DNA from: Marinifilum sp. N1E240
Lineage (GTDB): Bacteria > Bacteroidota > Bacteroidia > Bacteroidales > Marinifilaceae
NCBI RefSeq assembly: GCF_009295825.1
Contig: NZ_WHKF01000009.1
Span: 62,001-126,000, forward strand
DNA: 64,000 nucleotides
Direction: 5' to 3'
Below the pieces are notes generated by a model that made no database searches, was not told where the DNA came from, and saw only the letters and a program-made list of their open reading frames with translations. Shown piece after piece: positions 26,306 through 55,866 of this stretch. The translations under genes and the position numbers were made by a program. The first letter of the stretch is position 1; every line of letters begins with the position of its first letter.

Positions 26306-26369
26306 TTGGAAAATTTAAAATTCTATCCTATTTTTGATTCGAAAGTAATTTAAATCAGGAGATAGCAAA

Positions 26370-31564: not shown

Positions 31565-31582
31565 CAAAAAAGACTATATAAA

Positions 31583-33040: not shown

Positions 33041-33061
33041 GATATTGATAGAATAAAAAAC

Positions 33062-33087: not shown

Positions 33088-33102
33088 ATAGAATATTTAG
33101 AG

Positions 33103-33987
33103 ATGAGAAAATTGCATGCGATTATTTTAATTTCACTAGTTATAGTTTTTACTGCTTGTATCGGAAATACGAAGCCTCAGGATAAAAATGTTATTGGGAT
33201 TGAATTTTCTGATTCAACAGATCAGGCTATTTTTAATTCAATAAAAGATATAGTCAAACAACAATCACTAGATTCCTTATCTATTGATCTCAGAATAATT
33301 GAAATTGCAAAAATGTTCTTGCAAACTCCGTATGTTGGAGGAACTTTGGAAGGGAATGGACCTGAAAAACTTCGGGTTAATCTTAGACAATTAGATTGTA
33401 CCACCTATCTTGAGAATGTTGTTGTTTTATCAGCAATTGCAGGCAAAAAAGATATTAAAGCAAGTGATTTTTTAAAGGAGTTGGAAACATTGCGCTATCG
33501 AAGTGGTAAGTTGACTAATTATACTTCACGTTTGCATTATTTTACGGATTGGATTTTTGAGAATGAATCAAAAGGAATTGTCAAAAATATAACTGCAGAA
33601 ATAGGTGGTGTTCCTTTCGAAAAGAATATCAACTTCATGAGCACTCATGTTGAAAGTTATGCTGCCTTAAAAGCAGATTCGTCTTTTGTGAAAATAATCC
33701 GTGAAAACGAAAATGTTATTAATAATAGGGAAATGTACTTTATCCCCGAAGAGGAAATTACTATAGTTGAAAAAGAAATTCACGATGGAGATTTGATTGC
33801 GATAACCACCAAGATAAAAGGTTTGGAGATTTCTCATGTGGGAATAGCATTACATGTTAATGATCGATTGCATTTGATGCATGCATCAAGTCTTGCTAAA
33901 AAGGTTGTGATTTCTGAGACACCTCTCGCAGAAATGTTATTAAAAAATAGATTGCAATCGGGAATTATGGTTGTAAGGGTGCAATAA
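33103..33987 (+). CDS. DUF1460 N-acetylmuramoyl-L-alanine amidase-like lipoprotein
   Basis: A 294-residue lipoprotein (MRKLHAIILISLVIVFTAC, lipidated Cys at 19). The DUF1460 family (NlpC/P60-like fold) is recognised from LQTPYVGGTLEGNGPEKLRV, the catalytic-type LRQLDCTTYLENVV, YTSRLHYFTDWIFEN and the C-terminal ISHVGIALHVND...LHLMHASS, giving a Cys/His pair. Family members cleave wall peptides from MurNAc. It would act in the periplasm with the amidase encoded two genes earlier. Confidence 0.85.
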   Translation: MRKLHAIILISLVIVFTACIGNTKPQDKNVIGIEFSDSTDQAIFNSIKDIVKQQSLDSLSIDLRIIEIAKMFLQTPYVGGTLEGNGPEKLRVNLRQLDCTTYLENVVVLSAIAGKKDIKASDFLKELETLRYRSGKLTNYTSRLHYFTDWIFENESKGIVKNITAEIGGVPFEKNINFMSTHVESYAALKADSSFVKIIRENENVINNREMYFIPEEEITIVEKEIHDGDLIAITTKIKGLEISHVGIALHVNDRLHLMHASSLAKKVVISETPLAEMLLKNRLQSGIMVVRVQ

Positions 33988-34019
33988 AAATGAATATTTA
34001 ATTACCAGTTATATAAAAC

Positions 34020-35003
34020 ATGGATATAAACTGCATAGAAAAATTAGAAAGTTTATTGGAAAAGAGTCCTTCCGATCAGATATTAAGTAACTTTCTGAAT
34101 CAGCAGGTGAGAGATTGGCCTCTGGCAAATGGAAATTTTAAAGGATTGGAAAAGGTTGAAGAGAAAGAATTTGAATTTGATGGATTTAAAATGAAAGTGC
34201 AATTTAATCCGGAAAGAATTCGTTCATCTGCTGCTAAGGTTGATAAAAAGAGTATTGAAAATAGAGCCTGCTTTCTTTGTTTGGATAATTTGCCAGCAGA
34301 GCAAGGCGGCTTAGCTCAAGGAGAAGGTTTTGTGATTTTGGTGAATCCATTTCCTATAATCCCTCAGCATTTTACCATTCCAAAAGTAGATCATGTTGAT
34401 CAAAGCTTTATGCCCAATATTAATGGAATGTTGAGTTTGGCCAAAAGTATGGAAGGATACACCTTGTTTTATAATGGACCAAAATGTGGTGCTTCAGCTC
34501 CTGATCATATGCACTTTCAGGCAGGAAACAAAGGATTCATGCCAGTAGAATCGGAATATTTTTTTTTAAAAGATAAATCAGAATTACTTGTTAAAACTGA
34601 AGAAGTTGAGGTAAGATCATTTAATCATTTTTTAAGAAAAATGATTAGTGTAGAATCGACCAATACTAAGGATTTGGTAAAAATAGTTACTGACTTTTAC
34701 AATGTTTTTTCCGAAATGCAGCCAGAAGAGAATGAGCCGATGTTAAATGTAATCTGTTCATATGTAGATGGAAAATACATTATGCATTTGTTCCCTCGCA
34801 AATTGCACAGACCTACTCAATTTTTTGCTGAAGATGATGAGCAATTGTTAATAAGTCCTGCCTCGGTAGATTTTGGTGGAGTTTTTATTACCCCACGTCG
34901 CGAAGATTTTGAGAAAATTACCGCAAGTGATATTGAAGATATTTTTAAACAAACTTGTGTAGATGAAGACACTTTCTTTACTCTTTGTGAGAACTTGAAA
35001 TAA
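34020..35003 (+). CDS. DUF4922 protein, GalT/HIT-like
   Basis: A 327-residue cytoplasmic protein of DUF4922. The segment ENRACFLCLDNLPAEQGGL contains a CxxC, followed by VNPFPIIPQHFTIPK. SAPDHMHFQAG gives the HxHxQ signature of the GalT/Ap4A-phosphorylase branch of the HIT superfamily, so nucleotidyl transfer or phosphorolysis of a nucleotide sugar is plausible. The C-terminal half is a second alpha/beta unit (NVICSYVDGKYIMHLFPR). Substrate not known. It is 32 bases after DUF1460 and 11 before the SpoIID-like gene. Confidence 0.8.
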   Translation: MDINCIEKLESLLEKSPSDQILSNFLNQQVRDWPLANGNFKGLEKVEEKEFEFDGFKMKVQFNPERIRSSAAKVDKKSIENRACFLCLDNLPAEQGGLAQGEGFVILVNPFPIIPQHFTIPKVDHVDQSFMPNINGMLSLAKSMEGYTLFYNGPKCGASAPDHMHFQAGNKGFMPVESEYFFLKDKSELLVKTEEVEVRSFNHFLRKMISVESTNTKDLVKIVTDFYNVFSEMQPEENEPMLNVICSYVDGKYIMHLFPRKLHRPTQFFAEDDEQLLISPASVDFGGVFITPRREDFEKITASDIEDIFKQTCVDEDTFFTLCENLK

Positions 35004-35014
35004 CCCAATTAACT

Positions 35015-36346
35015 ATGAAAATAAAAGAACCACAACTACGAGTTGGAATCATGTACGAAAAAGAGATTTCGTTTCAATTAAACGGAACTTATGTACTTCA
35101 ACAAAATGGGAAAAAATACGCTGGAAATCAGCATGCAAAATTTGTTGATGGAAAAATTGTTTTCGATGGATTATGCGAGAATGAATTGATTTTCAACCCT
35201 GAAAATGAAAAAGAGGGATGCTTTGATCTGTTTGGTGTAACCATTGGAATTAAATTTCATTGGGAGAGAAAAGAAGATCAGAAATTTAAAGGAGCCTTGC
35301 ATTTTATCGTGGAAGACGAAAAACTGACTGCAATTAATGTGCTTTCCCTTGAAGATTATCTGGTAAGCGTAATTTCTTCTGAAATGAGTGCTACAAGTAG
35401 TATGGAACTTTTAAAAGCTCACGCTGTAATTTCACGATCGTGGTTGATGGCTCAGGTAATAAAGGGTGAAGAATTACTGCAATCCAATACAAATTACCAA
35501 AGTATTGTTGAAACAGAGGATTCTTATATTCGCTGGTACGATAGAGAAGATCATGTTAATTTCGATGTTTGCGCCGACGATCATTGTCAGCGTTATCAGG
35601 GAATTACAAGACAATCTACACAATTGGTAGTTGAGGCAATTGAATCTACGCGTGGCTTGGTTTTGACCAGTGAAGGAAGGATTTGTGATGCAAGATTTTC
35701 CAAATGTTGTGGTGGTGTTGCTGAAACTTTCGAAAATGTTTGGGAACCGGAAAATCACAAATACTTGCAGGCAGTGATCGATAATCCTCAGGCACCTGCT
35801 GGTTACGATATGAATTTAAAAGATGAACTTGCTGCCGATAAATTTATTCGCACTTCGCCTGAGGCATTCTGTAATACAACAGATAAGGAAATTCTTTCGC
35901 AGGTTTTAAATGATTACGATCAGGAAACCATGGATTTTTATCGCTGGAAAGTGGAATACACACAGGAAGAAATTGCAGAATTAATCGAAAGAAAAACAGG
36001 AAAAGAATTTGGACAGATTTTGGATCTTATTCCAGGTAAACGAGGTGAATCGGGACGATTAATTACACTGAAAATTATTGGCAGTAAACGATCATTAACC
36101 ATTGGGAAAGAATTAGAAATTCGAAAAGTACTTTCAGAATCTCATTTGTATAGTTCCGAATTTGTGGTTGATAAATTGGATCTTAAAAATGGAGTACCTT
36201 CTAAATTTGTTTTGATTGGTGCCGGTTGGGGACATGGCGTTGGTCTTTGTCAAATTGGAGCAGCCGTAATGGGAGCCAAAGGATACAAACACGATGAAAT
36301 TCTACTTCACTATTTCAGAGGAGCTGAATTAGAAAAAAGATATTAA
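35015..36346 (+). CDS. SpoIID/LytB-domain protein without signal peptide
   Basis: A 443-residue SpoIID family member. SpoIID is a lytic transglycosylase that cuts denuded glycan strands. The catalytic Glu motif is SSEMSATSSMELLKAHAVIS followed by RSWLM, and the C-terminal GWGHGVGLCQIGAAVMGAKG is typical. The insert contains Cys residues (VCADDHCQRY, FSKCCGGVAETF). The protein begins MKIKEPQLRVGIMYEKEIS, with no signal peptide or anchor, and only 11 bases separate it from DUF4922, leaving little room for one. It may therefore act in the cytoplasm on imported glycan, or be exported by another route. Confidence 0.85.
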   Translation: MKIKEPQLRVGIMYEKEISFQLNGTYVLQQNGKKYAGNQHAKFVDGKIVFDGLCENELIFNPENEKEGCFDLFGVTIGIKFHWERKEDQKFKGALHFIVEDEKLTAINVLSLEDYLVSVISSEMSATSSMELLKAHAVISRSWLMAQVIKGEELLQSNTNYQSIVETEDSYIRWYDREDHVNFDVCADDHCQRYQGITRQSTQLVVEAIESTRGLVLTSEGRICDARFSKCCGGVAETFENVWEPENHKYLQAVIDNPQAPAGYDMNLKDELAADKFIRTSPEAFCNTTDKEILSQVLNDYDQETMDFYRWKVEYTQEEIAELIERKTGKEFGQILDLIPGKRGESGRLITLKIIGSKRSLTIGKELEIRKVLSESHLYSSEFVVDKLDLKNGVPSKFVLIGAGWGHGVGLCQIGAAVMGAKGYKHDEILLHYFRGAELEKRY

Positions 36347-36405
36347 CAAATGTTTGAGAGTTTTATTTCGAATGAGGCTCTCAATACTATCAACTCGTTT
36401 TCATA

Positions 36406-38298
36406 ATGGAAAAGAGTAAAAGGATTAATAAAATCAATACAATGTCAAAATCAAAATCAGGAAATCGCTCACCTTGGGCATGGATTCCATCCTTATATTT
36501 TGCTGAAGGTATTCCTTATGTAGTAGTGATGACGGTTGCAGTTATCATGTATAAACGATTGGGTATTTCAAATACAGATATTGCACTTTATACTTCCTGG
36601 TTATACTTGCCGTGGGTAATTAAGCCATTTTGGAGTCCAATTGTTGATATTTTAAAAAGTAAGCGTTGGTGGATTGTAAGCATGCAACTTTTGATTGGTG
36701 CTGGTTTAGCTGGTGTTGCTTTTACTGTTCCAACAACTTTGTTCTTTCAATCAACATTAGCATTTTTCTGGTTATTGGCTTTTAGTTCCGCAACTCATGA
36801 TATTGCCGCTGATGGTTTTTACATGTATGGGATTGATGATAGTCAACAAGCTTACTTTATTGGGATTCGATCTACATTTTATCGTTTAGCGATGATTACG
36901 GGGCAAGGGCTATTGATTATTTTAGCAGGCTTTTTCGAAGTTGCTTGGGGATTAGAGCCAGTTGAAATAATGGTTAATTCTTCAATGAAAGATTCTAAAA
37001 AGGTTGAGTTGTTGGCGGAAAAAAGTACTGAGAAATCTAAGGATGATTTTTATTTTACTCTGGATAATACAAACCTTTTCGTAGAATCTGGTGTTATGAT
37101 TGAGTCTGAGTTTGATTCCATTTCAAATCATGTTAAGAATTCTAATGTTGAGAATGGTTTTGTTTTACTTGAAAAAGAAAAAGAGGAAGAAAAAGAGGAA
37201 GATTCTTGGTGGGATAAATCTGTTGTAGATCCTTTGGAAGGTTTCATTAAAGACAATTTTGGATCTACTAAATATTCAAAAGATAAAGAAATCATAAAAG
37301 GAAATGTTGGAGTGGCTCATGTGAAACTTTCACTTGAACCTAAAGAAGGTAAGGAAATAATTTTAAGCTTATCTAGAAAAAAAGGTAATGAAAGTATTAA
37401 CCTGATCAGTTCGGATCGATTAGTGTTTACAAAGGAGAATTGGGATAAGGAAGCTATTCTTCTTTTTCAAGTAGATCCTAAGATGAAGAAATCATCAAGT
37501 TCAATATTCATAGGAAGATCTGGAAATATTCCAATGGCATGGTCGATGATTTTTGTGATATTAGCAGGTCTGTTTCTATTGTTTTCATTTTATCACAAAT
37601 TTGCTTTACCAAAGCCTCAAGGAGATGAAGAGAAAGAAGTAAAAGGTTTTGCCAATGTATTTTCCGATTTTACTGAAACATTCACTACATTTTTCTTTAA
37701 GAAAGACATCTTGTTGATCATCGGGGTACTACTAACTTATCGCCTTGGAGAGTCGCAATTGGTAAAAATGGCTTCACCTTTCTTGTTAGACGGTAGAGAA
37801 ATTGGAGGATTGGGATTATCTACCAGTGAAGTGGGAATTGTTTATGGAACCATTGGAATTCTTTTTCTTACGATTGGAGGTATTTTGGGAGGATATGCAG
37901 CTTCACGAAAAGGTTTAAAGTACTGGCTGTGGCCTATGGTGATTGCTATTAACCTGCCAAATTTGGTTTATGTGTATCTTTCTTATGCATTGCCTGAATC
38001 ATTTGTTTTGGTTTGTGCATCGGTGGCAGTTGAGCAGTTTGGATATGGTTTCGGATTTACAGCTTATATGTTGTATCAGATTTATGTATCCGAAGGAAAG
38101 CACAAAACAGCGCATTTTGCATTTTGTACGGGTTTAATGGCATTGGGGATGATGATTCCTGGAATGGTATCTGGTTGGATTCAGGAAATGATTGGATATC
38201 AACACTTCTTTGTGTGGGTAATCATTTGTACCATTCCAAGTTTTATTATGGTGAAATTAATCAAGGTTGATCCTAAGTTTGGTATCAAGCAAAAATAA
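36406..38298 (+). CDS. AmpG-like MFS transporter with periplasmic insert
   Basis: Inner-membrane transporter of 630 residues resembling AmpG, the permease for anhydro-muropeptides. TM1-5 lie before residue 180 (YFAEGIPYVVVMTVAVIMYK, LYLPWVIKPFWSPIVD, SATHDIAADGFYMYGID). TM6 starts near 376 and six more follow (from about 430). About 195 residues (182-375) are inserted between TM5 and TM6, on the periplasmic side by MFS topology. The insert has a charged EKEKEEEKEED run and a beta-strand-rich part ending DRLVFTKENWDKEAILLFQV, reminiscent of Calx-beta-type strands. Usual AmpG has no such domain. The start could also be ATG 36442. Confidence 0.82.
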   Translation: MEKSKRINKINTMSKSKSGNRSPWAWIPSLYFAEGIPYVVVMTVAVIMYKRLGISNTDIALYTSWLYLPWVIKPFWSPIVDILKSKRWWIVSMQLLIGAGLAGVAFTVPTTLFFQSTLAFFWLLAFSSATHDIAADGFYMYGIDDSQQAYFIGIRSTFYRLAMITGQGLLIILAGFFEVAWGLEPVEIMVNSSMKDSKKVELLAEKSTEKSKDDFYFTLDNTNLFVESGVMIESEFDSISNHVKNSNVENGFVLLEKEKEEEKEEDSWWDKSVVDPLEGFIKDNFGSTKYSKDKEIIKGNVGVAHVKLSLEPKEGKEIILSLSRKKGNESINLISSDRLVFTKENWDKEAILLFQVDPKMKKSSSSIFIGRSGNIPMAWSMIFVILAGLFLLFSFYHKFALPKPQGDEEKEVKGFANVFSDFTETFTTFFFKKDILLIIGVLLTYRLGESQLVKMASPFLLDGREIGGLGLSTSEVGIVYGTIGILFLTIGGILGGYAASRKGLKYWLWPMVIAINLPNLVYVYLSYALPESFVLVCASVAVEQFGYGFGFTAYMLYQIYVSEGKHKTAHFAFCTGLMALGMMIPGMVSGWIQEMIGYQHFFVWVIICTIPSFIMVKLIKVDPKFGIKQK

Positions 38299-38348
38299 TT
38301 TCACAGAATATAGATCATTAATAATTGCCAAATATTACAAAATTAGAT

Positions 38349-38879
38349 ATGAAAAAGCGAATTGCATTTCTCGGAGATAGCCTAACTCATGCAGGAAGGT
38401 GGGAAGAGTATTTTCTAAATGCCGATATATCTAATAATGGAATTCCAGGAGAAATTTCGATAGAAATTCTTTCACGTTTGGATGGTGTATTGCAAAAGCA
38501 ACCTGATATTATTTTTGTGATGATGGGCATTAATGATTTGGGAAGTGGTATTAATGTGGAAGAGATTCTGGGTCATTATAATCAACTTATTGATCGGGTT
38601 AAAAGAAATTCAAAAGCAAAATTGATTGTGCAGAGTTTGCTTCCTGTGAATTTTGAACTATTTCCTATCACTATTTTTAATGCTGAGGATATCATCAATT
38701 TGAATGATTTGCTAAAATCTCAATGTAAAAAGGAAGATATCACTTTCGTGGATCTGTATTCATCTTTCGCGACAGGTTCCAATGAACTAATGAAAGAGTA
38801 TACCTACGACGGGCTGCATTTAAATGATTCGGGATATTCTGTTTGGAAAAATAAATTGTTCTCTGAAAACCTATTATAA
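38349..38879 (+). CDS. SGNH/GDSL hydrolase
   Basis: A 176-residue esterase-type hydrolase without signal peptide. All four blocks are visible: FLGDSLTHAGRW (nucleophile Ser), NGIPGEISIEIL (Gly), VMMGINDLGSG (Asn) and DGLHLNDSGY (Asp/His). It may remove O-acetyl groups from salvaged sugars or muropeptides, but that is inferred only from its place in the operon. ATG 38349 is preferred to TTG 38325. It ends 4 bases before the next gene. Confidence 0.85.
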   Translation: MKKRIAFLGDSLTHAGRWEEYFLNADISNNGIPGEISIEILSRLDGVLQKQPDIIFVMMGINDLGSGINVEEILGHYNQLIDRVKRNSKAKLIVQSLLPVNFELFPITIFNAEDIINLNDLLKSQCKKEDITFVDLYSSFATGSNELMKEYTYDGLHLNDSGYSVWKNKLFSENLL

Positions 38880-38883
38880 CATT

Positions 38884-39993
38884 ATGGAAAAACCGAAAAG
38901 ACTAATGGCTTTGGATGCCTTTCGTGGGTTAACCATTGCTACAATGATTACTGTAAATACTCCGGGGAGTTGGAGTCATGTGTATGCTCCATTGTTGCAT
39001 TCAAAATGGCATGGTTGCACACCAACGGATTTAGTATTTCCATTCTTTTTATTCGCTGTTGGAGTCGCCATGTTTTTTGCTTTTGGGAAGTTCAATCATC
39101 AATTGAATGCCGAAGCTGGAAAGAAAATAATAAAACGGACTCTTATTATATTTGGCATTGGTTTGTTGCTGAATGCATTTCCGTTTTATCACATCAAGTT
39201 TGAAAATTTGAGAATAATGGGCGTTTTGCAGCGAATTGCTTTGGCTTACGGCATAGGTAGTTTTCTTTGTCTGACTTTAAACAAAACAAGGTTATTGTAT
39301 CTATCTGGGGCAATTTTATTTTCTTATTGGGGCTTGGTGTATTTCTTTGGCGGAGAAAATCCATATAGTTTAGAAGGTAATCCTACTATGGCTTTTGATA
39401 CAATGATTTTAGGAGCAAGTCATATGTATAAAGGTTTTGGAATTACATTCGATCCGGAAGGTTTGTTTAGTACACTTCCTGCAATAGTCACGGTTATTTT
39501 GGGATATCTAACGGGAGCTTTAATTTCCAAATCGGAAAAGAAAAGAATTGTTCCAAAACTATTAGTATTTGGAGCTTTTGGAGTGATATTAGGATTGGTT
39601 TGGAGTTTAGGATTCCCGATTAATAAACCCATTTGGTCGAGTTCTTATGTGATTTACACTGCAGGCTTGGCTCAATTGCTTATGGCGGTAATGATATATC
39701 TTATCGATATACTGGATTATAAAAAATGGGCACATCCATTTCTTGTTTTTGGAATGAATCCCCTTTTTATTTTTGTGCTTTCTGCTGTTTGGGTTAAGAT
39801 TATTGTTTATGTAGTTCACTTTGCTGATGATGCAGGAAAAGTTATGAACGGCTATTCTTGGTTGTATCAGAATGGATTTGCTTCCTGGGCTGGACCTTTA
39901 AATGGATCTTTGCTCTTTGCATTAAGCCATATTTTGGTGTACTGGTTGATTGTATTGTATTTATATCGGAAACGAATTTTTATTAAAATATAA
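38884..39993 (+). CDS. DUF5009 / NagX-like multi-pass membrane protein (possible MurNAc transporter)
   Basis: A 369-residue protein with about ten membrane helices, of the COG4299/DUF5009 family related to heparan-alpha-glucosaminide acetyltransferase. Typical segments: MALDAFRGLTIATMITVNTP, HGCTPTDLVFPFFLFAVGVA (with His) and MGVLQRIALAYGIG. From memory, the Tannerella MurNAc transporter MurT, encoded with murK and murQ, belongs to this family, and NagX of GlcNAc operons does too. Either import of MurNAc/GlcNAc or transmembrane acetylation is possible. ATG 38884 is chosen; the longer frame overlaps the SGNH gene. Last gene of the operon. Confidence 0.8.
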   Translation: MEKPKRLMALDAFRGLTIATMITVNTPGSWSHVYAPLLHSKWHGCTPTDLVFPFFLFAVGVAMFFAFGKFNHQLNAEAGKKIIKRTLIIFGIGLLLNAFPFYHIKFENLRIMGVLQRIALAYGIGSFLCLTLNKTRLLYLSGAILFSYWGLVYFFGGENPYSLEGNPTMAFDTMILGASHMYKGFGITFDPEGLFSTLPAIVTVILGYLTGALISKSEKKRIVPKLLVFGAFGVILGLVWSLGFPINKPIWSSSYVIYTAGLAQLLMAVMIYLIDILDYKKWAHPFLVFGMNPLFIFVLSAVWVKIIVYVVHFADDAGKVMNGYSWLYQNGFASWAGPLNGSLLFALSHILVYWLIVLYLYRKRIFIKI

Positions 39994-39994
39994 T

Positions 39995-40024
39995 AAAAAA
40001 GCTTCGGAATTCCGAAGCTTTTTT
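39995..40024. terminator. Bidirectional terminator between the salvage operon and namZ-like gene
   Basis: A perfect 30-base palindrome, AAAAAAGCTTCGGAA and its complement, giving T runs in both directions for the two convergent genes. Confidence 0.9.
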
Positions 40025-40032
40025 ATTTTGCA

Positions 40033-41310
40033 TTATTGATATAACCAATATTGTTTTGATTTCTTTTTAAATTCTTCAGCAGGAATATCCCAAAGTTCTA
40101 TGATATCTTCTACTCTGTACCTTTTAGAAAATAGACTTCTTATCTTTTTGCTACCACAAACTTTATCAAACATGCTTAATCGTGACTGATCACACATTTT
40201 GAAAATATTTTTTTGTGGATATAATTTATGTAACTCTTGTAATACATAGAATTGAATTAAAGATAATGGAGCTTTTTTGATATCAGTAAAGTGAACCTGG
40301 ACTCCATGAATCATTCTACCTTTGCTAACTGAGTAATAGGGCTTGTAATGAATTGGGCGAAACAGAGTGCCTGGTAAATTTAAATCATTCAGATTTTTTG
40401 ATAGATCATCAGCATTTATCCATTCGGCAGCGAATAATTCAAATGGTTGAGTATAGCCAACTCCTATTGATATTGTATATAATTCACCTAAAATTCCTGA
40501 AATAGGATAATATATAGCACTTAATGAGTTTGGAATGTGAGGCGATGTTGGAACCCATGGTAATTTGGTATCAGCAAAAAGCATGTCTCTTTTCCAGCCT
40601 TCCATTTTTATAACAGTTAATTGGCATTTTTTTTCATTTTTCAACAATCCTTCATTGTTAATATAGTTTGCCAATTCTCCACAGGTAAGTCCGTAAATGT
40701 ATGGGATAGGAAATTGACTAACAAATGAAATATAGTTAGGCTCAACCAAAGCGCCTTCAACTTTTAATCCACCAATCGGATTTGGACGATCCAAAACTAT
40801 TAATTCCAAATTGTTTTCAGCGCAGGCTTCCATAGCTAAACCCATCGTACTGATGTACGTGTATGAGCGAACACCAATATCTTGAATGTCATAAACCAAA
40901 GCATCTAAACCTTTAAGCATTTTGGCATTTGGTTTTTTATTTTTTCCGTATAATGAGTAAACGGTGAGTCCGGTTTTTTTGTCGATGTAAGTTCCGACTT
41001 TATCTCCAGCTGCATGGTCACCACGAATTCCATGTTCAGGACTGTATAGTGCTTTGATTTTTAACTCTGGAGCAGCATGTAGAAGATCTATAGTAGATTG
41101 AAGATGTTGATTTACCCCCGTTGGATTGGTAATAATACCAATAGATTTTCCATTTAGGCTCTCAAAATTAGTTTTTTGTAGTACATCTATCCCTGTTAGT
41201 ACTTTTTGAGCCTTTAACTCTTTAAGCGAAAATACTTGGGTAAATACAAATATTATAAGAAAGAATAGTTGTGTCTTTTTGATGTGAATGCGCTTGTTGA
41301 TCAGTTTCAT
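40033..41310 (-). CDS. namZ: Exo-beta-N-acetylmuramidase NamZ-like (DUF1343, GH171)
   Basis: A 425-residue exported protein. The N-terminal signal (about 35 residues, ending LKAQ) precedes the DUF1343 core: GIDVLQKTNFESLNGKSIGI, ITNPTGVN, ALYSPEHGIRGDHAAGDKVG, LVYDIQDIGVRSYTYISTM, VLDRPNPIGG and GVGYTQPFE. NamZ of Bacillus and Tannerella releases MurNAc from the non-reducing end of MurNAc-GlcNAc chains and founded family GH171. This makes it the periplasmic MurNAc supplier for MurK/MurQ. Monocistronic, sharing a 396-base control region with the GHL10 gene. Confidence 0.9.
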   Translation of the reverse strand: MKLINKRIHIKKTQLFFLIIFVFTQVFSLKELKAQKVLTGIDVLQKTNFESLNGKSIGIITNPTGVNQHLQSTIDLLHAAPELKIKALYSPEHGIRGDHAAGDKVGTYIDKKTGLTVYSLYGKNKKPNAKMLKGLDALVYDIQDIGVRSYTYISTMGLAMEACAENNLELIVLDRPNPIGGLKVEGALVEPNYISFVSQFPIPYIYGLTCGELANYINNEGLLKNEKKCQLTVIKMEGWKRDMLFADTKLPWVPTSPHIPNSLSAIYYPISGILGELYTISIGVGYTQPFELFAAEWINADDLSKNLNDLNLPGTLFRPIHYKPYYSVSKGRMIHGVQVHFTDIKKAPLSLIQFYVLQELHKLYPQKNIFKMCDQSRLSMFDKVCGSKKIRSLFSKRYRVEDIIELWDIPAEEFKKKSKQYWLYQ

Positions 41311-47127: not shown

Positions 47128-48231
47128 ATGAGTAAGTATATAGGCGTAATGTCGGGTACTAGTTTAGATGGTGTTGATGCTGTACTGGTTTCAATTAAGA
47201 ACGATAATGTTGAGGTTATTAAAAGTGTATCTCATGATTTTCCATCTGATTTGGTTAATGACCTTAAGAGATTACTGGAAGAGGGAATTATTTCGCTACA
47301 GAAACTTGGAGAAATTAATTACCGCTTGGGTTTGGTTTATGCTAATTGTGTTAATGATTTAATTTTAAAGGCTGGAATAAATTCTGATGAGGTGACAGCA
47401 ATAGGTTGTCACGGACAAACTGTATTTCATGATCCAAGAAGTAAGTATCCTTTCTCGATGCAGCTTGGAGATGGTAATGTGTTAGCTGCAAAGACTGGAG
47501 TTGACGCAATTATGGATTTTAGAGGAATGGATATTGCTTTTGGTGGAGAAGGAGCTCCTTTGACTCCTGCTTTTCATCAAGAATTTTTCAAAGAACAAAA
47601 TGAGAATAGAGTGATTTTAAATCTTGGTGGAATTGCTAATGTTACAGTTCTTAACGAAGATAAAATATTAGGATTCGATACAGGTCCAGCGAATTGTTTG
47701 ATAGATTTATGGATACAGAATGAATTGGGAAAACAGTTTGATAAAAACGGAGATTGGGCTCGATCTGGTAATATTCATAGTGAATTGTTGACTCATTTTA
47801 TGAATGAAGATTATTTTAAACTTAAAGCTCCAAAGAGTACAGGCAAGGAATTATTCAACCTAGAGTGGATTAAAGAAAAACTAGTCGATTTTCCAAATAT
47901 TTCCAATAAAGATGTTCAAGCTACAATCACAGAGTTAACTGCCAGATCAATTGCAGAAGCTATTCATCTTTATGCTTCTAATATAGATGCAATGTATATA
48001 TGTGGTGGAGGTGCTTTTAATTTATATCTACGAGAAAGATTAAGTCATTATATGCCGAAAATAAAAATATCTACTACTTCGGACCTAGGTATTCCCGAGC
48101 AATTGGTTGAAGCTGTTGCATTTGCATGGTTGGCTCATCAAAGAGTTAATGAGTTATCTGGTAATTTACCAAGTGTGACCGGATCAGGTAATACCGCCAT
48201 TCTTGGTTGTGTTTATAAATATATAGGGTAG
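47128..48231 (+). CDS. anmK: Anhydro-N-acetylmuramic acid kinase
   Basis: Phosphorylates 1,6-anhydro-MurNAc while opening its ring, giving MurNAc-6-P, the MurQ substrate. 367 residues. The ATP site is MSKYIGVMSGTSLDGVDAVL. Further marks are GCHGQTVFHDP, MDFRGMDIAFGGEGAPLTPAFH (catalytic Asp), NLGGIANVTVL, FDTGPANCLID and ICGGGAFN. AnmK implies a source of anhydro-muropeptides, fitting the AmpG-like transporter and SpoIID-like protein. Single gene. Confidence 0.97.
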   Translation: MSKYIGVMSGTSLDGVDAVLVSIKNDNVEVIKSVSHDFPSDLVNDLKRLLEEGIISLQKLGEINYRLGLVYANCVNDLILKAGINSDEVTAIGCHGQTVFHDPRSKYPFSMQLGDGNVLAAKTGVDAIMDFRGMDIAFGGEGAPLTPAFHQEFFKEQNENRVILNLGGIANVTVLNEDKILGFDTGPANCLIDLWIQNELGKQFDKNGDWARSGNIHSELLTHFMNEDYFKLKAPKSTGKELFNLEWIKEKLVDFPNISNKDVQATITELTARSIAEAIHLYASNIDAMYICGGGAFNLYLRERLSHYMPKIKISTTSDLGIPEQLVEAVAFAWLAHQRVNELSGNLPSVTGSGNTAILGCVYKYIG

Positions 48232-48538: not shown

Positions 48539-49714
48539 ATGAAACAAATTTCATTTATAGTACTTTTTTTAATGTGTGTAGCTTGTTCTAATAATTTGGA
48601 ATTATTACAGCGAGTGGAGCAAATATCAAATGGGCTTAAAAATAAGTTGGCTCCAGATAGCAGGGAAGCCATATATCAAATAAAGTTCTATTTCGAGAAA
48701 AATAATAAGTTAGTGATTAGGGGTGAAACTTCTCTGCCAGATGCGAAAAGCGCCTTATTGACGGCTGTTAAAGAATTAGGAGTTCAATGTATAGATAGTG
48801 TAAGCTTACTACCTGATGAGAAATTGGGAGAAAGAAATTGGGCTCTGATAAATTTAAGTGTTGTTAATCTTAGAGCAAATCCAAGGCATTCGGCAGAGCT
48901 TGTTTCTCAAGCCATAATGGGTACTCCCGTAAAAATCCTTAAGAAAGAAAATTCTTGGTATTTAGTTCAAACTCCCGATAAGTACATTGCTTGGGTGGAT
49001 GCAGCCGCATTAAATCTCAGAAATGAACAGGAGTTGCAAAATTGGAGAGAATCTGAAAGAATAATTTTTAAACCATCTTTTGAGGTTGCCTCTAGTGGTA
49101 ATGGTAAAGAAGTGGTTACTGATATTGTAGCAGGATCTATTCTAGAGATTGATACAATTATTGGAGGAAATTATTTGTTGAAACTACCTGATGGACGCTC
49201 TATTGGATTGGATAAAGAGAAATGTGAGAAGTTTAATGAATGGAAAGTTAAAAACATTACCGATGTATCCATTTTGACTTTAACAGCTAAGCAATTTATG
49301 GGAAGACCTTATTTATGGGGTGGTACTTCTTCGAAGGGAGTGGATTGTAGTGGTTTTGTAAAGTCAGTTTATTTTATGAATGGTATCATTCTCGCACGTG
49401 ATGCATCCTTACAGTTCCTTCATGGTCAATCGATTTTACCAAGCCAAGGATTTATGGATTTAAGAGAAGGTGATTTGGTGTTTTTCGGTAGAAAGGCTGC
49501 AGAAGATGCAAATCAAAAGGTTACTCATGTTGGAATGTATATGAAGGATGGTGAATTTATTCATTCTGCTGGTCGTGTTAAGATTAATAGTTTCGATCCG
49601 AAAGCTTATAATTTCAGTAATTATAGAACTGTAAGTTGGTTGGGAGGACGAAGAATTTTAAATAGAATTGGCGAGAATGGAATTGTACGTGTAGCAAATC
49701 ATCCTTGGTATTAA
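48539..49714 (+). CDS. NlpC/P60 endopeptidase lipoprotein with SH3 domains
   Basis: 391 residues from ATG 48539, giving a lipoprotein-type signal (MKQISFIVLFLMCVAC). Bacterial SH3 domains lie at about 95-165 and 175-235 (VVNLRANPRHSAELVSQAIM). The NlpC/P60 domain has C270 (GVDCSGF), H330 (VTHVGMY) and H342 (FIHSAG). It resembles YkfC-type gamma-D-Glu-diaminoacid endopeptidases, which release L-Ala-D-Glu from wall peptides. That product is the substrate of the epimerase encoded 15 bases downstream. First gene of the SusCD operon. Confidence 0.9.
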   Translation: MKQISFIVLFLMCVACSNNLELLQRVEQISNGLKNKLAPDSREAIYQIKFYFEKNNKLVIRGETSLPDAKSALLTAVKELGVQCIDSVSLLPDEKLGERNWALINLSVVNLRANPRHSAELVSQAIMGTPVKILKKENSWYLVQTPDKYIAWVDAAALNLRNEQELQNWRESERIIFKPSFEVASSGNGKEVVTDIVAGSILEIDTIIGGNYLLKLPDGRSIGLDKEKCEKFNEWKVKNITDVSILTLTAKQFMGRPYLWGGTSSKGVDCSGFVKSVYFMNGIILARDASLQFLHGQSILPSQGFMDLREGDLVFFGRKAAEDANQKVTHVGMYMKDGEFIHSAGRVKINSFDPKAYNFSNYRTVSWLGGRRILNRIGENGIVRVANHPWY

Positions 49715-49729
49715 AAGAAATAACTACAA

Positions 49730-50869
49730 ATGAAAATTGATAGAAGGAAATTTTTAGGGAATACAGGTTTATTGCTAGGTGCTAGTTGTGTACTTCCATT
49801 GAATGGTGGTTGTGGTAATATAAGTGCCAATGAATCTAGCTATAAAGGTAAAGGATTAAAGTTAAGTTTTGAGCCGTATGATTTGCAGTTGAAACATGTT
49901 TTCACTATCGCATCTTTTTCAAGAACAACTACACCAGTTATGCTTGTGAAAATTGAGTGGGGTGGTGTTATAGGTTATGGTGAGGCTTCTATGCCTCCAT
50001 ATTTGGGCGAATCTCACAAAACTGCTACTAAATTTTTAAAAAGTCTTAAGCTAAATCAATTTCATGATCCATTTCGATTGAATGAAATTCTATCATATGT
50101 TGATGGTGTTGCAAGTGGTAATTGCGCGGCTAAGGCATCGGTTGATATTGCTCTTCATGATTTGATTGGAAAATTAATGGAGAAGCCATGGTTTAAAATA
50201 TGGGGCTACAATAAAGAGGATACACCTGTTACAACTTTTACAATTGGCATTGATAAACCAGATGTTGTTGTTGAAAAAGTTAAGGAAGCTGTACCCTATA
50301 AAATGCTTAAGGTTAAAATTGGTAGAGGTAATGATGAGGAAATGATTAAAACAATTAGAACCGTTACCAAAATTCCTTTATGTGTTGATGTGAATCAAGG
50401 GTGGAAAGATAAACAGGAAGCCTTAGATAAAATTCATTGGTTGAAGGAACAAGGTGTTGTATTTGTTGAACAACCAATGGATAAATATGATTTAGATACC
50501 ATGGCTTGGTTGACACAGCATAGTCCTCTTCCAACTATTGCAGATGAAGGTATTCAGCGTTTAGCCGATATACCAAAATTGAGTGGAGCTTATTCAGGTA
50601 TCAATATTAAGCTAATGAAATGTACAGGTATGCGTGAGGCGCATAAAATGATGAATTTGGCTCGATCATTAGATATGAAAGTAATGATAGGTTGTATGAC
50701 CGAGACTTCGGTTGGAGTTAGTGCAGCAGCTCAACTTTCTCCTATGGTTGATTGGGCAGATCTGGATGGAAATTTATTAATATCGAATGACCCATTTAAA
50801 GGTGTAACAGTTAAGGAAGGTAAAGTAATATTACCGGATCAATCTGGAATAGGAGTAATTAAATTATAA
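49730..50869 (+). CDS. Exported L-Ala-D/L-Glu (dipeptide) epimerase
   Basis: A 379-residue enolase-superfamily enzyme. Catalytic Lys pair K194-V-K196 (MLKVKIGRG), metal ligands D220 (VDVNQGW), E247 (VEQPM) and D272 (ADEG), second-face K294 (NIKLMKC), and GCMTETSVG: all present. Dipeptide epimerases convert L-Ala-D-Glu to L-Ala-L-Glu so ordinary dipeptidases can use it. Here the N-terminus MKIDRRKFLGNTGLLLGASC carries a twin-arginine signal (RRKFLG), perhaps with lipidation at the following Cys, so the enzyme seems to be exported folded. It sits between the endopeptidase and SusC genes. Confidence 0.9.
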   Translation: MKIDRRKFLGNTGLLLGASCVLPLNGGCGNISANESSYKGKGLKLSFEPYDLQLKHVFTIASFSRTTTPVMLVKIEWGGVIGYGEASMPPYLGESHKTATKFLKSLKLNQFHDPFRLNEILSYVDGVASGNCAAKASVDIALHDLIGKLMEKPWFKIWGYNKEDTPVTTFTIGIDKPDVVVEKVKEAVPYKMLKVKIGRGNDEEMIKTIRTVTKIPLCVDVNQGWKDKQEALDKIHWLKEQGVVFVEQPMDKYDLDTMAWLTQHSPLPTIADEGIQRLADIPKLSGAYSGINIKLMKCTGMREAHKMMNLARSLDMKVMIGCMTETSVGVSAAAQLSPMVDWADLDGNLLISNDPFKGVTVKEGKVILPDQSGIGVIKL

Positions 50870-50874
50870 TTTGG

Positions 50875-50922
50875 AATCTAAATTTAACACTATATAATTT
50901 GCTAATCTAAATTTAATACTAT
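50875..50922 (+). repeat. Direct repeat before susC
   Basis: Two 19-base copies, AATCTAAATTTAACACTAT at 50875-50893 and AATCTAAATTTAATACTAT at 50904-50922, differing at one base. The second copy runs into the susC ATG; the first ends in ATA. Confidence 0.75.
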
Positions 50923-53900
50923 GAAAAAAATTGCGTGCTTAGCGTTAATTATACTTCTTAGCTGGCAGATATCCTGGGCACAGGAATTGCTAGTGAAGGG
51001 TACAGTTACAGGTAGCGATAATGTAACTTTACCAGGGGTATCAATTGTAGAAAAAGGAACTTCTACTGGAACCATTACCGATATTGATGGTAAATACGAA
51101 TTGAAAGCAGAAGTTGGTGCTACCTTGGTATTTACTTTTGTTGGAATGGAACCTCAAGAGATTGTACTTACAGGACAACAAGTTATTGACGTAGTGCTGA
51201 TACCTCAGTCGATTGGAGTTGATGAAGTTGTAGTTACAGCTTTGGGAATTAAAAAGAGTAAAAAATCTTTGGGGTATGCAGTTCAGAATATAAAATCTGA
51301 TGAATTACTTGCTGGTAACCAGAGCAATATGGTTAACACTTTGCAAGGTAAAATTGCAGGTGTAAGCATTAGTAGTGCTGGTGGATCCCCAGGAGCTTCG
51401 TCGATTATCATGATTAGAGGTGGTTCTTCATTGAGTGGAAATAACCAACCTCTATTTATTGTTGATGGATTACCTATCGATAACTCGACTAATTCGAGTT
51501 CTGAAGTTGCTAGTGCTAACCGTGCTTCCGATATTAATCCAGAGGATATAGAATCTATATCTGTGTTGAAAGGTGCTACAGCCGCTGCTCTTTATGGTAT
51601 ACAAGCCGCTGAAGGTGCTATTATTATTACAACTAAAAAAGGTAAAACAGGTGAAGGTAAAATTTCATTCTCTTCTACTTTATCTGTTGATGAGGTTATA
51701 GGTACTCCTGATATACAGAATACCTTCGGACAGGGAAGTTACGAATATAACAGCGATGGAGATATTCTTGGTTATGACCCATCACCGGGAATACACTTAC
51801 AATCGTGGGGTGATGTAATTCCTGAAGGAACTCCTACTTATGATAATATAAGTAATTTATTCGATAAGGCAGTTACGCAAAAATACAATGTGAACTACTC
51901 AGGTGGTAATGAACAAACCAATATCTTTGCTTCTGCATCTTATTTAGATCAAAATGGTGTTATCGAAAACACTGGTTACGAAAAACTGAATCTTACTTTT
52001 AACGCACAGTCTAAATTTAGAAAAAACTTGACTATTGGTGTTAATGCTAAGTATATTAATACTCAAACTAAAAGTAATAAGCAAGGTACTTCTTCGGGTG
52101 GTTCTTTTATAAGTATGCTTAAATATCCTGTTACCTATGATGCACGTGATTATGCAAACGAAGATGGTACACAAAAGATATTTATGGATTCAAAAGAAGA
52201 TCAAGATTTTGATAATCCATACTGGAGTCTTGATAATTCACCTAATACCGATGAGGTAGACAGATTAATTGGACAAGTTAATTTGAATTATAAACCTCTC
52301 GATTTTCTTACTATTTCTTATCGTTTAGGAACCGACTATTATTCACAATTTAATAAGAAGATTACTGATTTTGGATCTCTTATTAAAGGTAGATCTGATG
52401 GTTACCTTAGACAATACGAGAAAACTAGTCGTTTAGTGACTTCTACACTTCTTGTTATGATGAATAAAACTTTTGACGAAGATTATTCTCTTGACGTAAC
52501 TTTAGGACATACAGTTGACGAAAAGAAGACAAGAACAACTTATACAGGAGGTAATAAGTTTCAAGCTCCTGATATATATAGTGTGTCAAATATTGCTGCT
52601 GATGACCAAACGCTTTCAGAATCTAAATATAGAAGAAGAAGTATGGGTGTTTTTGGTGAAGCTAAATTTGGTTGGAAAAACATTGCATTTTTAAATGTAA
52701 CCGGAAGAAACGACTGGTCTTCTACTTTACCGATTGGAGATCATTCATTTTTCTATCCATCTGTAGGTACCTCTGTTGTTGTTTCTGATCTTCTTAATGA
52801 ATTAGGTACTGATATTACTTCAGATAAGTTCCTTTCATATCTTAAATTAAGAGCTACTTGGGCGCAAGTTGGTAAAGATGCAAGCGCTCATATGTCAGAA
52901 TCTTATTTAACACTACGTTCATGGCACTATGTTCCTGTTTCTGATGGTTATACTTGGAATTCAGACCAAGCTGGTAATCCAAATTTGAAACCTGAATTTA
53001 CCACTTCATTTGAAATTGGTATGGATGCTCGTTTTTTAAAGAATAGAGTTAAGCTAGATTTTAGTTACTACCATAGTTTATCTGAAGACCAACTTTTAAA
53101 TGTGAGACTACCGCCGGCTGCAGGAGCTTATATCGCTCAGCTTAATGGTGGATCTGTTAAAAACGAAGGATACGAAGCTTTAGTTAATGTTTCTTTACTT
53201 CCAAGATCGAGTGACTTCCAGTGGGATATGTCTTTCAATTTTGCAAAAATGGAAAGTACTGTTTATGATCTTCCTGGTGAATTAGTTGAGGTAAATAACG
53301 ATCAGTCGTGGACATGGAATAGCACAGCTTTAGGTGCTGCTGTTTTGGATGGTAACCTTTTCGGATTAAAGGGTAAAAGACCAAAAACAAACGAAAATGG
53401 TGATAGGATAGTGAATAGCGATGGAAATTATTCTCTTGGCGAGGATATCTTTCCGGATGTTGATCGTATGCCAGATTGGACTATGGGGATTATCAACTCA
53501 ATGTCGTACAAAAATTTTAGATTGTCATTCCTTGTTGATATGAGTATTGGTGGCGATGTTTATAATGCTACAGAAGCAGCTTTAACCTATTATGGTTTAA
53601 GTACGACCTCAGAGAACCGATCTATGACCGAAACAATGGTTTTGGATGGTGTTATGGCAAATGGTGTAGATGCTGATGGAAATACGATTTATGTAAAAAA
53701 TACTACTCCTATTTTGAAGGATCAGAAATACTATCAAGATCAGTATTCGCAAAATGCTGAGAACTTTATTGAGGATGCTACATACGTTAAACTTAGATAT
53801 GTAACACTTTCTTATAATCTTCCTAAGACTATTCTTGATAAGATTGGTTTCGATGGAATGGAAGTTTTTGCAACTGGTAGAAATCTATTGATGATTTCTG

Positions 53901-54031
53901 ATTACTCAGGTGTTGATCCTGAAATTGCTTCTTTTGGTGCCTCTGTTAGTGGTTCTGGAGCTATAGGTCTTGATAATCTAAGTACTCCTAATACTAAGGG
54001 TTTTGATTTAGGTGTTAAAATTAATTTCTAA
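50921..54031 (+). CDS. SusC/RagA-type TonB-linked outer membrane transporter
   Basis: A 1036-residue TonB-dependent importer. Signal peptide MKKIACLALIILLSWQISWA, a carboxypeptidase-regulatory-like domain (25-95; VKGTVTGSDNVTLPGVSIVE), the plug (about 110-230; VVVTALGIKKSKKSLGYAVQ, NPEDIESISVLKGATAAALYG) and a large barrel ending in KINF. It works with the SusD lipoprotein encoded 11 bases later. Linkage to the endopeptidase and epimerase suggests wall peptides or muropeptides as cargo rather than a plain polysaccharide; this is inference. Confidence 0.93.
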   Translation: MKKIACLALIILLSWQISWAQELLVKGTVTGSDNVTLPGVSIVEKGTSTGTITDIDGKYELKAEVGATLVFTFVGMEPQEIVLTGQQVIDVVLIPQSIGVDEVVVTALGIKKSKKSLGYAVQNIKSDELLAGNQSNMVNTLQGKIAGVSISSAGGSPGASSIIMIRGGSSLSGNNQPLFIVDGLPIDNSTNSSSEVASANRASDINPEDIESISVLKGATAAALYGIQAAEGAIIITTKKGKTGEGKISFSSTLSVDEVIGTPDIQNTFGQGSYEYNSDGDILGYDPSPGIHLQSWGDVIPEGTPTYDNISNLFDKAVTQKYNVNYSGGNEQTNIFASASYLDQNGVIENTGYEKLNLTFNAQSKFRKNLTIGVNAKYINTQTKSNKQGTSSGGSFISMLKYPVTYDARDYANEDGTQKIFMDSKEDQDFDNPYWSLDNSPNTDEVDRLIGQVNLNYKPLDFLTISYRLGTDYYSQFNKKITDFGSLIKGRSDGYLRQYEKTSRLVTSTLLVMMNKTFDEDYSLDVTLGHTVDEKKTRTTYTGGNKFQAPDIYSVSNIAADDQTLSESKYRRRSMGVFGEAKFGWKNIAFLNVTGRNDWSSTLPIGDHSFFYPSVGTSVVVSDLLNELGTDITSDKFLSYLKLRATWAQVGKDASAHMSESYLTLRSWHYVPVSDGYTWNSDQAGNPNLKPEFTTSFEIGMDARFLKNRVKLDFSYYHSLSEDQLLNVRLPPAAGAYIAQLNGGSVKNEGYEALVNVSLLPRSSDFQWDMSFNFAKMESTVYDLPGELVEVNNDQSWTWNSTALGAAVLDGNLFGLKGKRPKTNENGDRIVNSDGNYSLGEDIFPDVDRMPDWTMGIINSMSYKNFRLSFLVDMSIGGDVYNATEAALTYYGLSTTSENRSMTETMVLDGVMANGVDADGNTIYVKNTTPILKDQKYYQDQYSQNAENFIEDATYVKLRYVTLSYNLPKTILDKIGFDGMEVFATGRNLLMISDYSGVDPEIASFGASVSGSGAIGLDNLSTPNTKGFDLGVKINF

Positions 54032-54042
54032 AATTGTAATAA

Positions 54043-55743
54043 ATGAAAAACTTAAATATAATTAGCGGATTTCTGGTTTTACTTTTGTTAGGAGGACTGT
54101 TTTCCTGTTCCGATGATTTTTTCGATGTTAATGAATCAGAAACAAAACCATCGAATATGTCTTTGCCACCTCAACAACGATTGATGGCTACGATAGATAA
54201 TACTACCGGTTTTGGACAAAGTAGATTGTCCAGAGAAGGTACTGTGCTCTCGTATCATATTACTGAAAGAACAACATATTATTCAAGATGGAGATGGGGA
54301 ACGGTTTCTTATGCCGCTGAGCAGTATCTATATACTAATGCTCTTCCAAATACTGCCGATTTAATTGTCTTAGGTGAAAAGTATAATTCACCTCATTATT
54401 CAGCTGTTGGAAAAATATTGAGAGCCTATCTTTTTTCTATGGTTAGCGATCAGCTTGGTGATATAATTATGGAAGATTCTTATAATGCTAAAGATCAGCT
54501 TATTCTTACGCCAAAGTTAACTTCGCAAAAGGATGCTTACGCTGGGATGCATAAGCTTATCGATGAAGCTCTTTTAGATTTTGATAAACCAAATGAAATT
54601 GATCTTAATGTAATTGGTACGGATGTAATGTTTCAAGGAGATATTACAAAGTGGAAGAAATTTGCATGGGCTCTTAAGGCTCGTCTTCTTAACCATATGA
54701 CTGCTAAAACTTCGGGTGATTTTAAATATGATCCAGCTGCTGTTATTGCTGCTTGTGGGAAAGCTATGAGCTCAAATGCAGATAATGCAAAAAGAGAATT
54801 TACAGGAGAAGAGACTCAAAATAATATCTACCCATGGTCTGATACTGAAGGTGGTGAAGTAGAGGGTGCTTTTGATTCTCGTGCAGATAACTGGTCAAAG
54901 TTTTTTGTTGACAATCTTAAAGATCCATTGTTATTAAATAATGAATCTGTTCCAGATCCACGTTTACCTCTTATCGTGCAACCTGCTTTAGATGCAGAGC
55001 TTTATGGTTTAACTGGTTTAGATATGTATCAAGGTGTTCCTATGGGAACATATCGTGAAAATGGCTTTAACGGTGTTAAAGAGACTGTAAATTTTGTTGC
55101 TGGAGATATCAATCCGTTTACAGGAGAACCTTTCGAAGAGGACATTACAATTGTTATGGATTCAACAGAATATTTCTCCAGAGGTCATCAATATGGTAAG
55201 CCTAATGGTTTGTTTTATACTAGTCCAAATTCTGATTGGTATTTGATTACTTACGCAGAATGTAAATTTATTGAGGCTGAAGCAAATTTCAGAAATGGAG
55301 ATAAAGCAGCTGCTTTTGCTGCTTACAAAGAAGGTATCAATGCGGATATGACTAATATGGGAGTTGATGCTGCTGAAATTGCAAATTATATGACTCAAGT
55401 TGATAATATTGGTTCGGCAAATATCACTCTTGAGCGTATTATGACTCAAAAACATATAGCAACAGTAATGAATCCTGAAACTTGGGTTGATTTGCGTAGA
55501 GTTGAGTACGATAATACTTTTACTAGACTTAAAAGACCTCAAAACCTTAATGCTAGTATATTCCCAACTTCTGGTGATGAAGTTGATGGTAAAGAAGTGT
55601 GGATTCGAGCTCTTAAATATGACAATAGAAATATTGAGAGAAATTCAGCGAATTTACCTGATAATGATGATGCATCTCGTTTCCCAACACGAGTTTGGTG
55701 GAACACTCCTGATGCTGATGACGTAGTGGATTTAACGAAGTAA
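54043..55743 (+). CDS. SusD/RagB-family nutrient-binding lipoprotein
   Basis: A 566-residue surface lipoprotein of the SusD-like_2 branch. Lipobox: LGGLFSCSDDFFDVNES (Cys near residue 22). TPR-type helices are seen (YSAVGKILRAYLFSMVSDQLGD; WKKFAWALKARLLNHMTAKT; YAECKFIEAEANFRNGDKAA), and the typical late segment ITLERIMTQKHIATVMNPETW. It forms the lid over the SusC barrel and sets specificity. It is last in the operon; a hairpin with T run follows at 55867. Confidence 0.93.
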   Translation: MKNLNIISGFLVLLLLGGLFSCSDDFFDVNESETKPSNMSLPPQQRLMATIDNTTGFGQSRLSREGTVLSYHITERTTYYSRWRWGTVSYAAEQYLYTNALPNTADLIVLGEKYNSPHYSAVGKILRAYLFSMVSDQLGDIIMEDSYNAKDQLILTPKLTSQKDAYAGMHKLIDEALLDFDKPNEIDLNVIGTDVMFQGDITKWKKFAWALKARLLNHMTAKTSGDFKYDPAAVIAACGKAMSSNADNAKREFTGEETQNNIYPWSDTEGGEVEGAFDSRADNWSKFFVDNLKDPLLLNNESVPDPRLPLIVQPALDAELYGLTGLDMYQGVPMGTYRENGFNGVKETVNFVAGDINPFTGEPFEEDITIVMDSTEYFSRGHQYGKPNGLFYTSPNSDWYLITYAECKFIEAEANFRNGDKAAAFAAYKEGINADMTNMGVDAAEIANYMTQVDNIGSANITLERIMTQKHIATVMNPETWVDLRRVEYDNTFTRLKRPQNLNASIFPTSGDEVDGKEVWIRALKYDNRNIERNSANLPDNDDASRFPTRVWWNTPDADDVVDLTK

Positions 55744-55866
55744 TTTTATAGCTGTCCTGTTTAATGGGCGGCTATATTTTTAGTAAAGAATAGCGGAGGA
55801 TGGTGTGATAACTTATTAACTATAAGGTTGAATTTACACTAGCCGCAAGTTAGTTTAGTTAGTATG

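Follow-up and report, generated by a model that had tools for sequence, protein, structure and literature searches.

The closest described counterparts of the locus considered here are YkfC and YkfB of Bacillus subtilis and Bacillus cereus and MpaA and YcjG of Escherichia coli, which carry out the same two reactions, release of L-Ala-D-Glu from a murein peptide by an endopeptidase and epimerization of this dipeptide, with the genes adjacent in Bacillus. The available part of the account by Xu et al. (2010; PMC2954226) records the ykfB-ykfC gene pair, Bacteroides thetaiotaomicron included, an exported YkfC in B. cereus, and no predicted signal peptide on YkfB of B. subtilis or B. cereus; both steps are proposed to be cytoplasmic in B. 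subtilis, and in B. cereus the endopeptidase is exported and the epimerase cytoplasmic. In the accepted pathway, dipeptide epimerization is a cytoplasmic step. By contrast, Marinifilum sp. N1E240 encodes a YkfC-type endopeptidase and a dipeptide epimerase that both carry export signals, at positions 48539–50869 of a 64,000-nucleotide stretch (contig NZ_WHKF01000009.1, positions 62,001 to 126,000), hereafter the window. We consider it probable (roughly 0.72) that this gene pair encodes a form of the YkfC-YkfB (MpaA-YcjG) murein-peptide pathway that operates outside the cytoplasm. No report of an exported dipeptide epimerase was found in the openly licensed literature searched, mostly by title and start of abstract, and an earlier mention is possible.

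The epimerase gene (49730–50869, + strand) encodes 379 amino acids. MR_MLE_N and MR_MLE_C both score above their gathering thresholds, giving the capping domain and barrel of the enolase superfamily, and the protein matches the B. thetaiotaomicron structures 3iji and 3ijq with a Z score of about 50, a root mean square deviation of 1.1 and 65% identity over 335–336 residues (phmmer against the B. thetaiotaomicron dipeptide epimerase chain, 8.8e-148). According to their PDB titles, 3iji and 3ijq are complexes with L-Ala-D-Glu, one of them termed “productive”, and by analogy the same ligand would be expected for the window enzyme. An alignment of 29 members shows no variation at K194, K196, D220, E247, D272, K294, D344, and D346; we take these to be the catalytic lysines, the metal-binding Asp/Glu/Asp, and the DxD that binds the dipeptide amino group. 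Homology to 3iji places the protein among predicted dipeptide epimerases, outside the NCBIfam equivalogs. At E≤0.001 its only relative in the source genome is itself.

The N-terminus of the epimerase (MKIDRRKFLGNTGLLL; MKIDRRKFLGNTGLLLGASCVLPLNGGCGN) has the twin-arginine motif D-R-R-K-F-L-G at residues 4–10. This twin-arginine translocation (Tat)-type signal and its linker, MKIDRRKFLGNTGLLLGASCVLPLNGGC..., occupy residues 1–42 (49730–49855, + strand) and include a lipobox-like Cys; the predicted local distance difference test score is below 50 over residues 1–7 and 9–37, and the predicted fold starts at about residue 43, with the first strand at 44. In-frame starts up to residue 71 are ATG1, TTG15, TTG24, TTG52, TTG54, and ATG71, with a further ATG at 88 within the first 100 codons. 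Since the fold begins at about residue 43 and ATG71 falls within it, no ATG could yield an intact enzyme lacking the signal, which leaves only the rare starts TTG15 and TTG24. A misassigned start was rejected on these grounds, since no other in-frame ATG separates ATG1 from ATG71, and because the motif is kept among relatives despite codon drift. The preliminary description of this locus had proposed a twin-arginine-type signal and named translation from a start downstream of the signal as evidence that would speak against it; motif, hydrophobic stretch, start-codon positions, and conservation in relatives all point to a genuine signal, and the epimerase is probably exported.

The same description placed the enzyme in the periplasm. 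Conservation argues well for export, and the periplasm is a likely destination, with the lipobox-like Cys hinting at membrane anchoring. A Cys lies 10–32 residues past the twin arginines in 20 of 120 Tat-bearing genes, among them all six of the window's clade (the window, L094, L095, L096, L202, and L203) as well as L100, L112, L113, L127, and L146. In each of those named, the Cys follows G, A, or S where the hydrophobic stretch ends; the window motif, NGGC, is a nonstandard lipobox. This pattern suggests that the epimerase is a Tat lipoprotein in the window's part of the tree.

The signal recurs widely. A search of 395 genomes of the phylum gave a relative at E≤1e-40 in 161, from which the 59 best nonwindow matches and one low match were taken with flanks. 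A scan of named genomes contributed the best 80 of 588 confirmed relatives, a set biased to close, mostly Tat-bearing genes and covering relatives in Marinifilum, Labilibaculum, Carboxylicivirga, Pedobacter, Dysgonomonas, Prevotella relatives, Muribaculaceae, Ignavibacteria, and others. Together with 20 Bacteroides-group loci (of 89 matches), three further regions, and 20 more distant loci from lower matches of the phylum search, the table comprised 184 genes, or 170 after clustering at 97%, with the window included and close relatives over-represented. A gene was classed as Tat-bearing if it combined the pattern R-[RK]-x-[FLIMWY]-[LIMVFNA], which itself fixes the first R, with a hydrophobicity threshold. 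On this basis a Tat-type signal is present in 37 of 61 genes of the phylum-search set including the window and in 121 of the 170 nonredundant genes. Where at least 35 open codons precede the domain, 121 of 126 genes have motif and hydrophobic stretch, more than chance would give; where fewer do, none of 44 has the motif, a result that is nearly built in since the motif needs an open frame. Among the 120 alignable genes of the 121, 115 have R and 5 have K as the second motif residue, F stands at +3 in 113, and all six arginine codons are used at each twin-arginine position.

In a FastTree phylogeny of the domain only (338 of 391 columns), all 121 Tat-bearing genes fall in one supported (starred) clade of 130 rows, the other nine lacking the signal, and none of the 40 rows outside the clade has it. 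At least seven changes of signal state are required; the tree has long branches and a weak root, on which any call of loss or gain rests. A Sphingobacterium-type trio without the signal, with NlpC/P60 adjoining, branches first within the clade (the next fork, 86, is unstarred), and the gene pair may therefore predate export. Given this distribution, a one-genome oddity was rejected as an explanation of the signal. The preliminary description, which dealt with this operon, is right about the signal and about a wall-peptide pathway and too narrow in scope: the trait marks a clade to which the B. thetaiotaomicron structural reference belongs.

Two arrangements deserve mention in their own right. 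The Sphingobacterium-type loci L063, L065, and L168 have a signal-less epimerase with NlpC/P60 next door, followed by SusC, so that epimerization is apparently cytoplasmic there; the NlpC/P60 start is hydrophobic in L063 and L065 and below the hydrophobicity threshold in L168. Genomes G093, G240, and G243 each encode a Tat-bearing and a signal-less epimerase (L057/L088, L061/L084, and L058/L089, respectively), suggesting one enzyme per compartment.

The B. thetaiotaomicron epimerase (3iji, 3ijl, and 3ijq), which we take to be encoded by BT_1313, shares the fold of the window enzyme, and a near-identical Bacteroides-group gene has the Tat signal and an NlpC/P60 gene upstream. This gene (L174) agrees with the 3iji chain in 337 of 338 positions, and its product is longer at the N-terminus by 45 residues that include a Tat signal, MPNRRDFLKTAAFATLGSG..., its upstream extension reading MPNRRDFLKTAAFATLGSGIAVSQVLAG... 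The aligned residues are numbered 46–382 in 3ijq and 47–382 in 3iji. Numbering from about 46 together with a 45-residue extension in a near-identical gene indicates that a native Tat N-terminus was probably removed from the solved chain, and we infer that the B. thetaiotaomicron protein itself carries the signal. That the enzyme is cytoplasmic because the PDB chain begins at the domain was rejected on the same two observations. A Tat-type start is present in all 20 Bacteroides-group loci examined; outside these, one match (66% identity, open frame 342) may be signal-less. Unlike the window, the near-identical gene (L204) has no match above 80 bits to the window SusC in the surrounding 15 kb.

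The upstream partner (48539–49714, + strand) is a putative NlpC/P60 lipoprotein of YkfC type, ending 15 bp before the epimerase gene. It has SH3b and NlpC/P60 domains (Pfam SH3_16 and NLPC_P60), its best PDB matches are 3npf and 3pvq, and the Cys of DCSG, the His of THVG, and the His of FIHS align with Cys and His residues of both structures. These are presumably the catalytic residues of a YkfC-type endopeptidase. Its start, MKQISFIVLFLMCVAC, is lipoprotein-like, with a lipobox-like Cys in MCVAC. The B. thetaiotaomicron protein BT_1314 has the same domain layout, is predicted to be secreted, is present in vesicles, and cleaves L-Ala-D-Glu-diaminopimelate (L-Ala-D-Glu-DAP, Tri-DAP; PMC12071298), an activity that by analogy would apply to the window protein; it differs in being listed as Sec/SPI, whereas the window protein has the lipobox-like Cys.

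Adjacency of the two genes is common among relatives. A same-strand YkfC-type NlpC/P60 neighbour is present for 102 of the 170 genes, and among the 138 flanked on each side by 1.5 kb or more it accompanies 72 of 92 Tat-bearing genes versus 4 of 46 signal-less ones, adjacency being scored by tblastn with the window proteins, which diverged neighbours can escape. Among 99 partners with a judgeable start, the N-terminus is hydrophobic in 96, and a simple lipobox pattern, which overlooks the MCVAC of the window, matches 27. Conserved adjacency and hydrophobic N-termini argue for the pairing, put forward in the preliminary description, of the predicted exported epimerase with a likewise exported γ-D-Glu-diamino-acid endopeptidase. 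In L142, L143, and L159 the best NlpC/P60 match lies downstream of the Tat-bearing epimerase on the opposite strand, so the pair occurs in another orientation as well.

Several observations weigh against an extracytoplasmic pathway. Location, cleavage, and activity of the Tat-bearing members are predicted. The window epimerase is matched at E≤10 by neither of the Tat models TIGR01409 and PF10518, which at that threshold match 19 and 13, respectively, of the 29 alignment members (the window and the signal-less L168 among the 29). Three of the nine signal-less clade members still adjoin NlpC/P60, and the nine together imply that export is not indispensable; conversely, 20 of the 92 Tat-bearing genes have no same-strand NlpC/P60 neighbour. 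The genes share ancestry, and the association between Tat signal and NlpC/P60 adjacency comes down to only 4 independent pairs, which is not significant (median p of the sign test, 0.5); correlated gain and loss was accordingly rejected as independent evidence. Finally, the epimerase falls below the NCBIfam equivalog cut-offs for L-Ala-D/L-Glu epimerase (132.5 against 500 and 125.1 against 343 bits), and its top NCBIfam score, also below cut-off, is to DgcA, an N-acetyl-D-Glu racemase (200.8 against 400 bits).

The reliance on sequence for location, the signal-less and presumably cytoplasmic clade members, and the miss by both Tat models would fit an N-terminus that is a mere membrane anchor or a degenerate signal, with the catalytic domain on the cytoplasmic side as proposed for B. 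subtilis. We regard this as improbable given an R-R-x-F that is conserved while every arginine codon is used, the presence of TatC in the source genome, and an endopeptidase partner that has its own signal and whose counterpart BT_1314 is found in vesicles. The family scores bear instead on the substrate. Dipeptide epimerases vary in ligand, as the titles of 3rit, 3q45, and 3deq indicate, and the exported enzyme might act outside the cytoplasm mainly on other dipeptides or on N-acyl amino acids, for example peptides brought in by the downstream SusCD, whose SusC resembles a peptide-binding one (BT_2264; cited in the available part of PMC7782687). The top score for DgcA is in line with such a role. 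The 65% identity to the B. thetaiotaomicron enzyme, whose structure holds L-Ala-D-Glu in a pose that its title calls productive, the frequent YkfC-type neighbour, and the wall-degradation neighbourhood of the window all speak for the murein dipeptide, and another principal substrate appears unlikely, if a little less so than a cytoplasmic domain. We retain the extracytoplasmic YkfC-YkfB pathway as the preferred explanation.

The epimerase gene is followed after 51 bp by a SusC/RagA TonB-dependent transporter gene (50921–54031, + strand; TIGR04056) and, after a further 11 bp, by a gene for a SusD-like lipoprotein (54043–55743, + strand; SusD-like_2, PF12771), which the preliminary description regarded as the importer of the pathway. 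The nearest solved SusC is BT_2264 (399 bits over residues 79–1032; the next match scores 191.5), of the BT2263-BT2264 pair for which a peptide complex is cited in the available part of PMC7782687. The SusD is only distantly related to BT_2263 (E 4e-6 over ~120 residues), many other SusD proteins scoring higher. The pair is present, with a SusC that resembles a peptide-binding one, but the case for it as a conserved partner of the epimerase is weak, and on this point the preliminary description goes too far. A same-strand SusC lies within ~3.6 kb downstream in 14 of the 122 genes whose flank is long enough, three of the 14 having a signal-less epimerase, and a SusD match at E≤1e-30 occurs in 2 of 29 other related genomes. 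Its role is weakened further because a dipeptide hardly needs SusCD.

An unrelated glycan or peptide importer may simply have landed behind the epimerase, leaving NlpC/P60 and epimerase as the functional unit, and we give this a little less than an even chance. Besides the low counts, the SusC in the corresponding slot of Marinifilum and Labilibaculum relatives is just 29% and 27% identical to that of the window, the Marinifilum one being nearest to 8aa4 and 5t3r. Two same-family genomes (L202 and L203) keep the order NlpC-epimerase-SusC-SusD with SusC and SusD 92–96% identical to those of the window, the SusD orthologues at 96% and 93%; in L203, SusC and SusD are 92–93% identical, NlpC/P60 62%, and AnmK 54%, as if separately acquired. 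On the other hand, an epimerase with a SusC behind it recurs in several separate lineages (Marinifilaceae, Marinilabiliaceae, Sphingobacteriaceae, and Prevotellaceae), and BT_2264 is the nearest PDB entry for the SusC of the window, L113, and L137 alike. We treat SusCD as a putatively optional and exchangeable importer. As an observation on the DNA, the segment 50921–55743 resembles an exchangeable cassette when L202 and L203 are set against L095 and L096.

All four genes proposed in the preliminary description to form one unit were found at 48539–55743 on the + strand, tightly spaced and closed directly after SusD by an intrinsic-terminator-like hairpin with a T run (55747–55776, + strand; hairpin scan). 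Such terminator-like sites number nine in the scanned stretch versus 4.6 (sd 2.3) in shuffles. Sigma-70-type matches sought as a promoter for the unit show no excess (49 versus a shuffled mean of 47.8), and promoters in Bacteroidota depart from the sigma-70 type, so that no promoter is proposed. Upstream, 307 bp before the NlpC/P60 ATG, lies a gene for the anhydro-MurNAc kinase AnmK (47128–48231, + strand; NF007139, 486.5 bits against a cut-off of 367).

Further genes of the window point to cell wall degradation. They include a NamZ exo-N-acetylmuramidase (40033–41310, − strand; PF07075 and PF20732 over cut-off), an AmiA-like N-acetylmuramoyl-L-alanine amidase with a lipoprotein-like start (33103–33987, + strand; PF07313, 179 bits against 27), which could free the stem peptide, and a candidate AmpG-like muropeptide permease (36406–38298, + strand; MFS_1 and BT1 over cut-off). 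We take the permease to be AmpG, a name that derives partly from likeness to the ampG operon of Tannerella forsythia; it has a long charged insert, apparently non-membrane, at about residues 180–370. Also encoded are a SIS protein that we assume to be MurQ, a SpoIID/LytB protein, a BadF-like kinase scoring slightly below its Pfam cut-off, and a Golvesin_C protein that Amidase_3 matches below threshold. At 26370–28352, beside the MurQ-like and kinase-like genes, a glucosamine-6-phosphate isomerase domain is fused to a PIG-L deacetylase-like domain. Some name equivalences between window genes and those of the T. forsythia operon are likewise our assumption. As far as the accessible part of its description goes (PMC5388701), the T. 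forsythia ampG-murTKQ operon resembles window positions 24421–41310 in its MurQ-like, kinase-like, amidase-like/“xanthan lyase”, LytB/SpoIID, AmpG-like, and YbbC/NamZ genes; order and strands agree in part, and that portion of the account names no epimerase, NlpC/P60, or SusCD. A bathymodioline-symbiont contig, in the available part of its description (PMC10199937), is similar and includes an L-Ala-D/L-Glu epimerase as well as two SusCD pairs.

We predict that NamZ and the amidases would strip sugar from wall fragments, after which the lipoprotein endopeptidase would cut L-Ala-D-Glu-DAP into L-Ala-D-Glu and DAP. The epimerase would fold in the cytoplasm, be exported by the Tat route, in the window lineage probably to a lipid-anchored position, and convert L-Ala-D-Glu to L-Ala-L-Glu outside the cytoplasm. 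SusCD may import larger wall peptides as an optional step. The product would be an ordinary L,L-dipeptide, usable by general peptidases or by POT-type transporters, so that no D-residue would have to pass the inner membrane as part of a peptide. L,L-dipeptides are the preferred substrates of POT transporters, and the PTR2-family transporters encoded in the source genome are a possible route for L-Ala-L-Glu.

For the Bacteroidota and Ignavibacteriota at large we favour, with less assurance than for the locus itself, a scheme in which stem peptides lose all D-stereochemistry before reaching the cytoplasm through a Tat-exported epimerase, that of B. thetaiotaomicron included, and a secreted YkfC, the switch having been gained once and lost several times and also clearing D-Glu peptides around gut bacteria. 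If this is correct, hydrolysis, stereochemical change, and inner-membrane uptake would follow one another in a different order from that of the E. coli and Bacillus models, in gut Bacteroides as well. The uptake of D-amino-acid wall peptides would then become directly testable, as would what happens in the gut to wall peptides sensed by the host.

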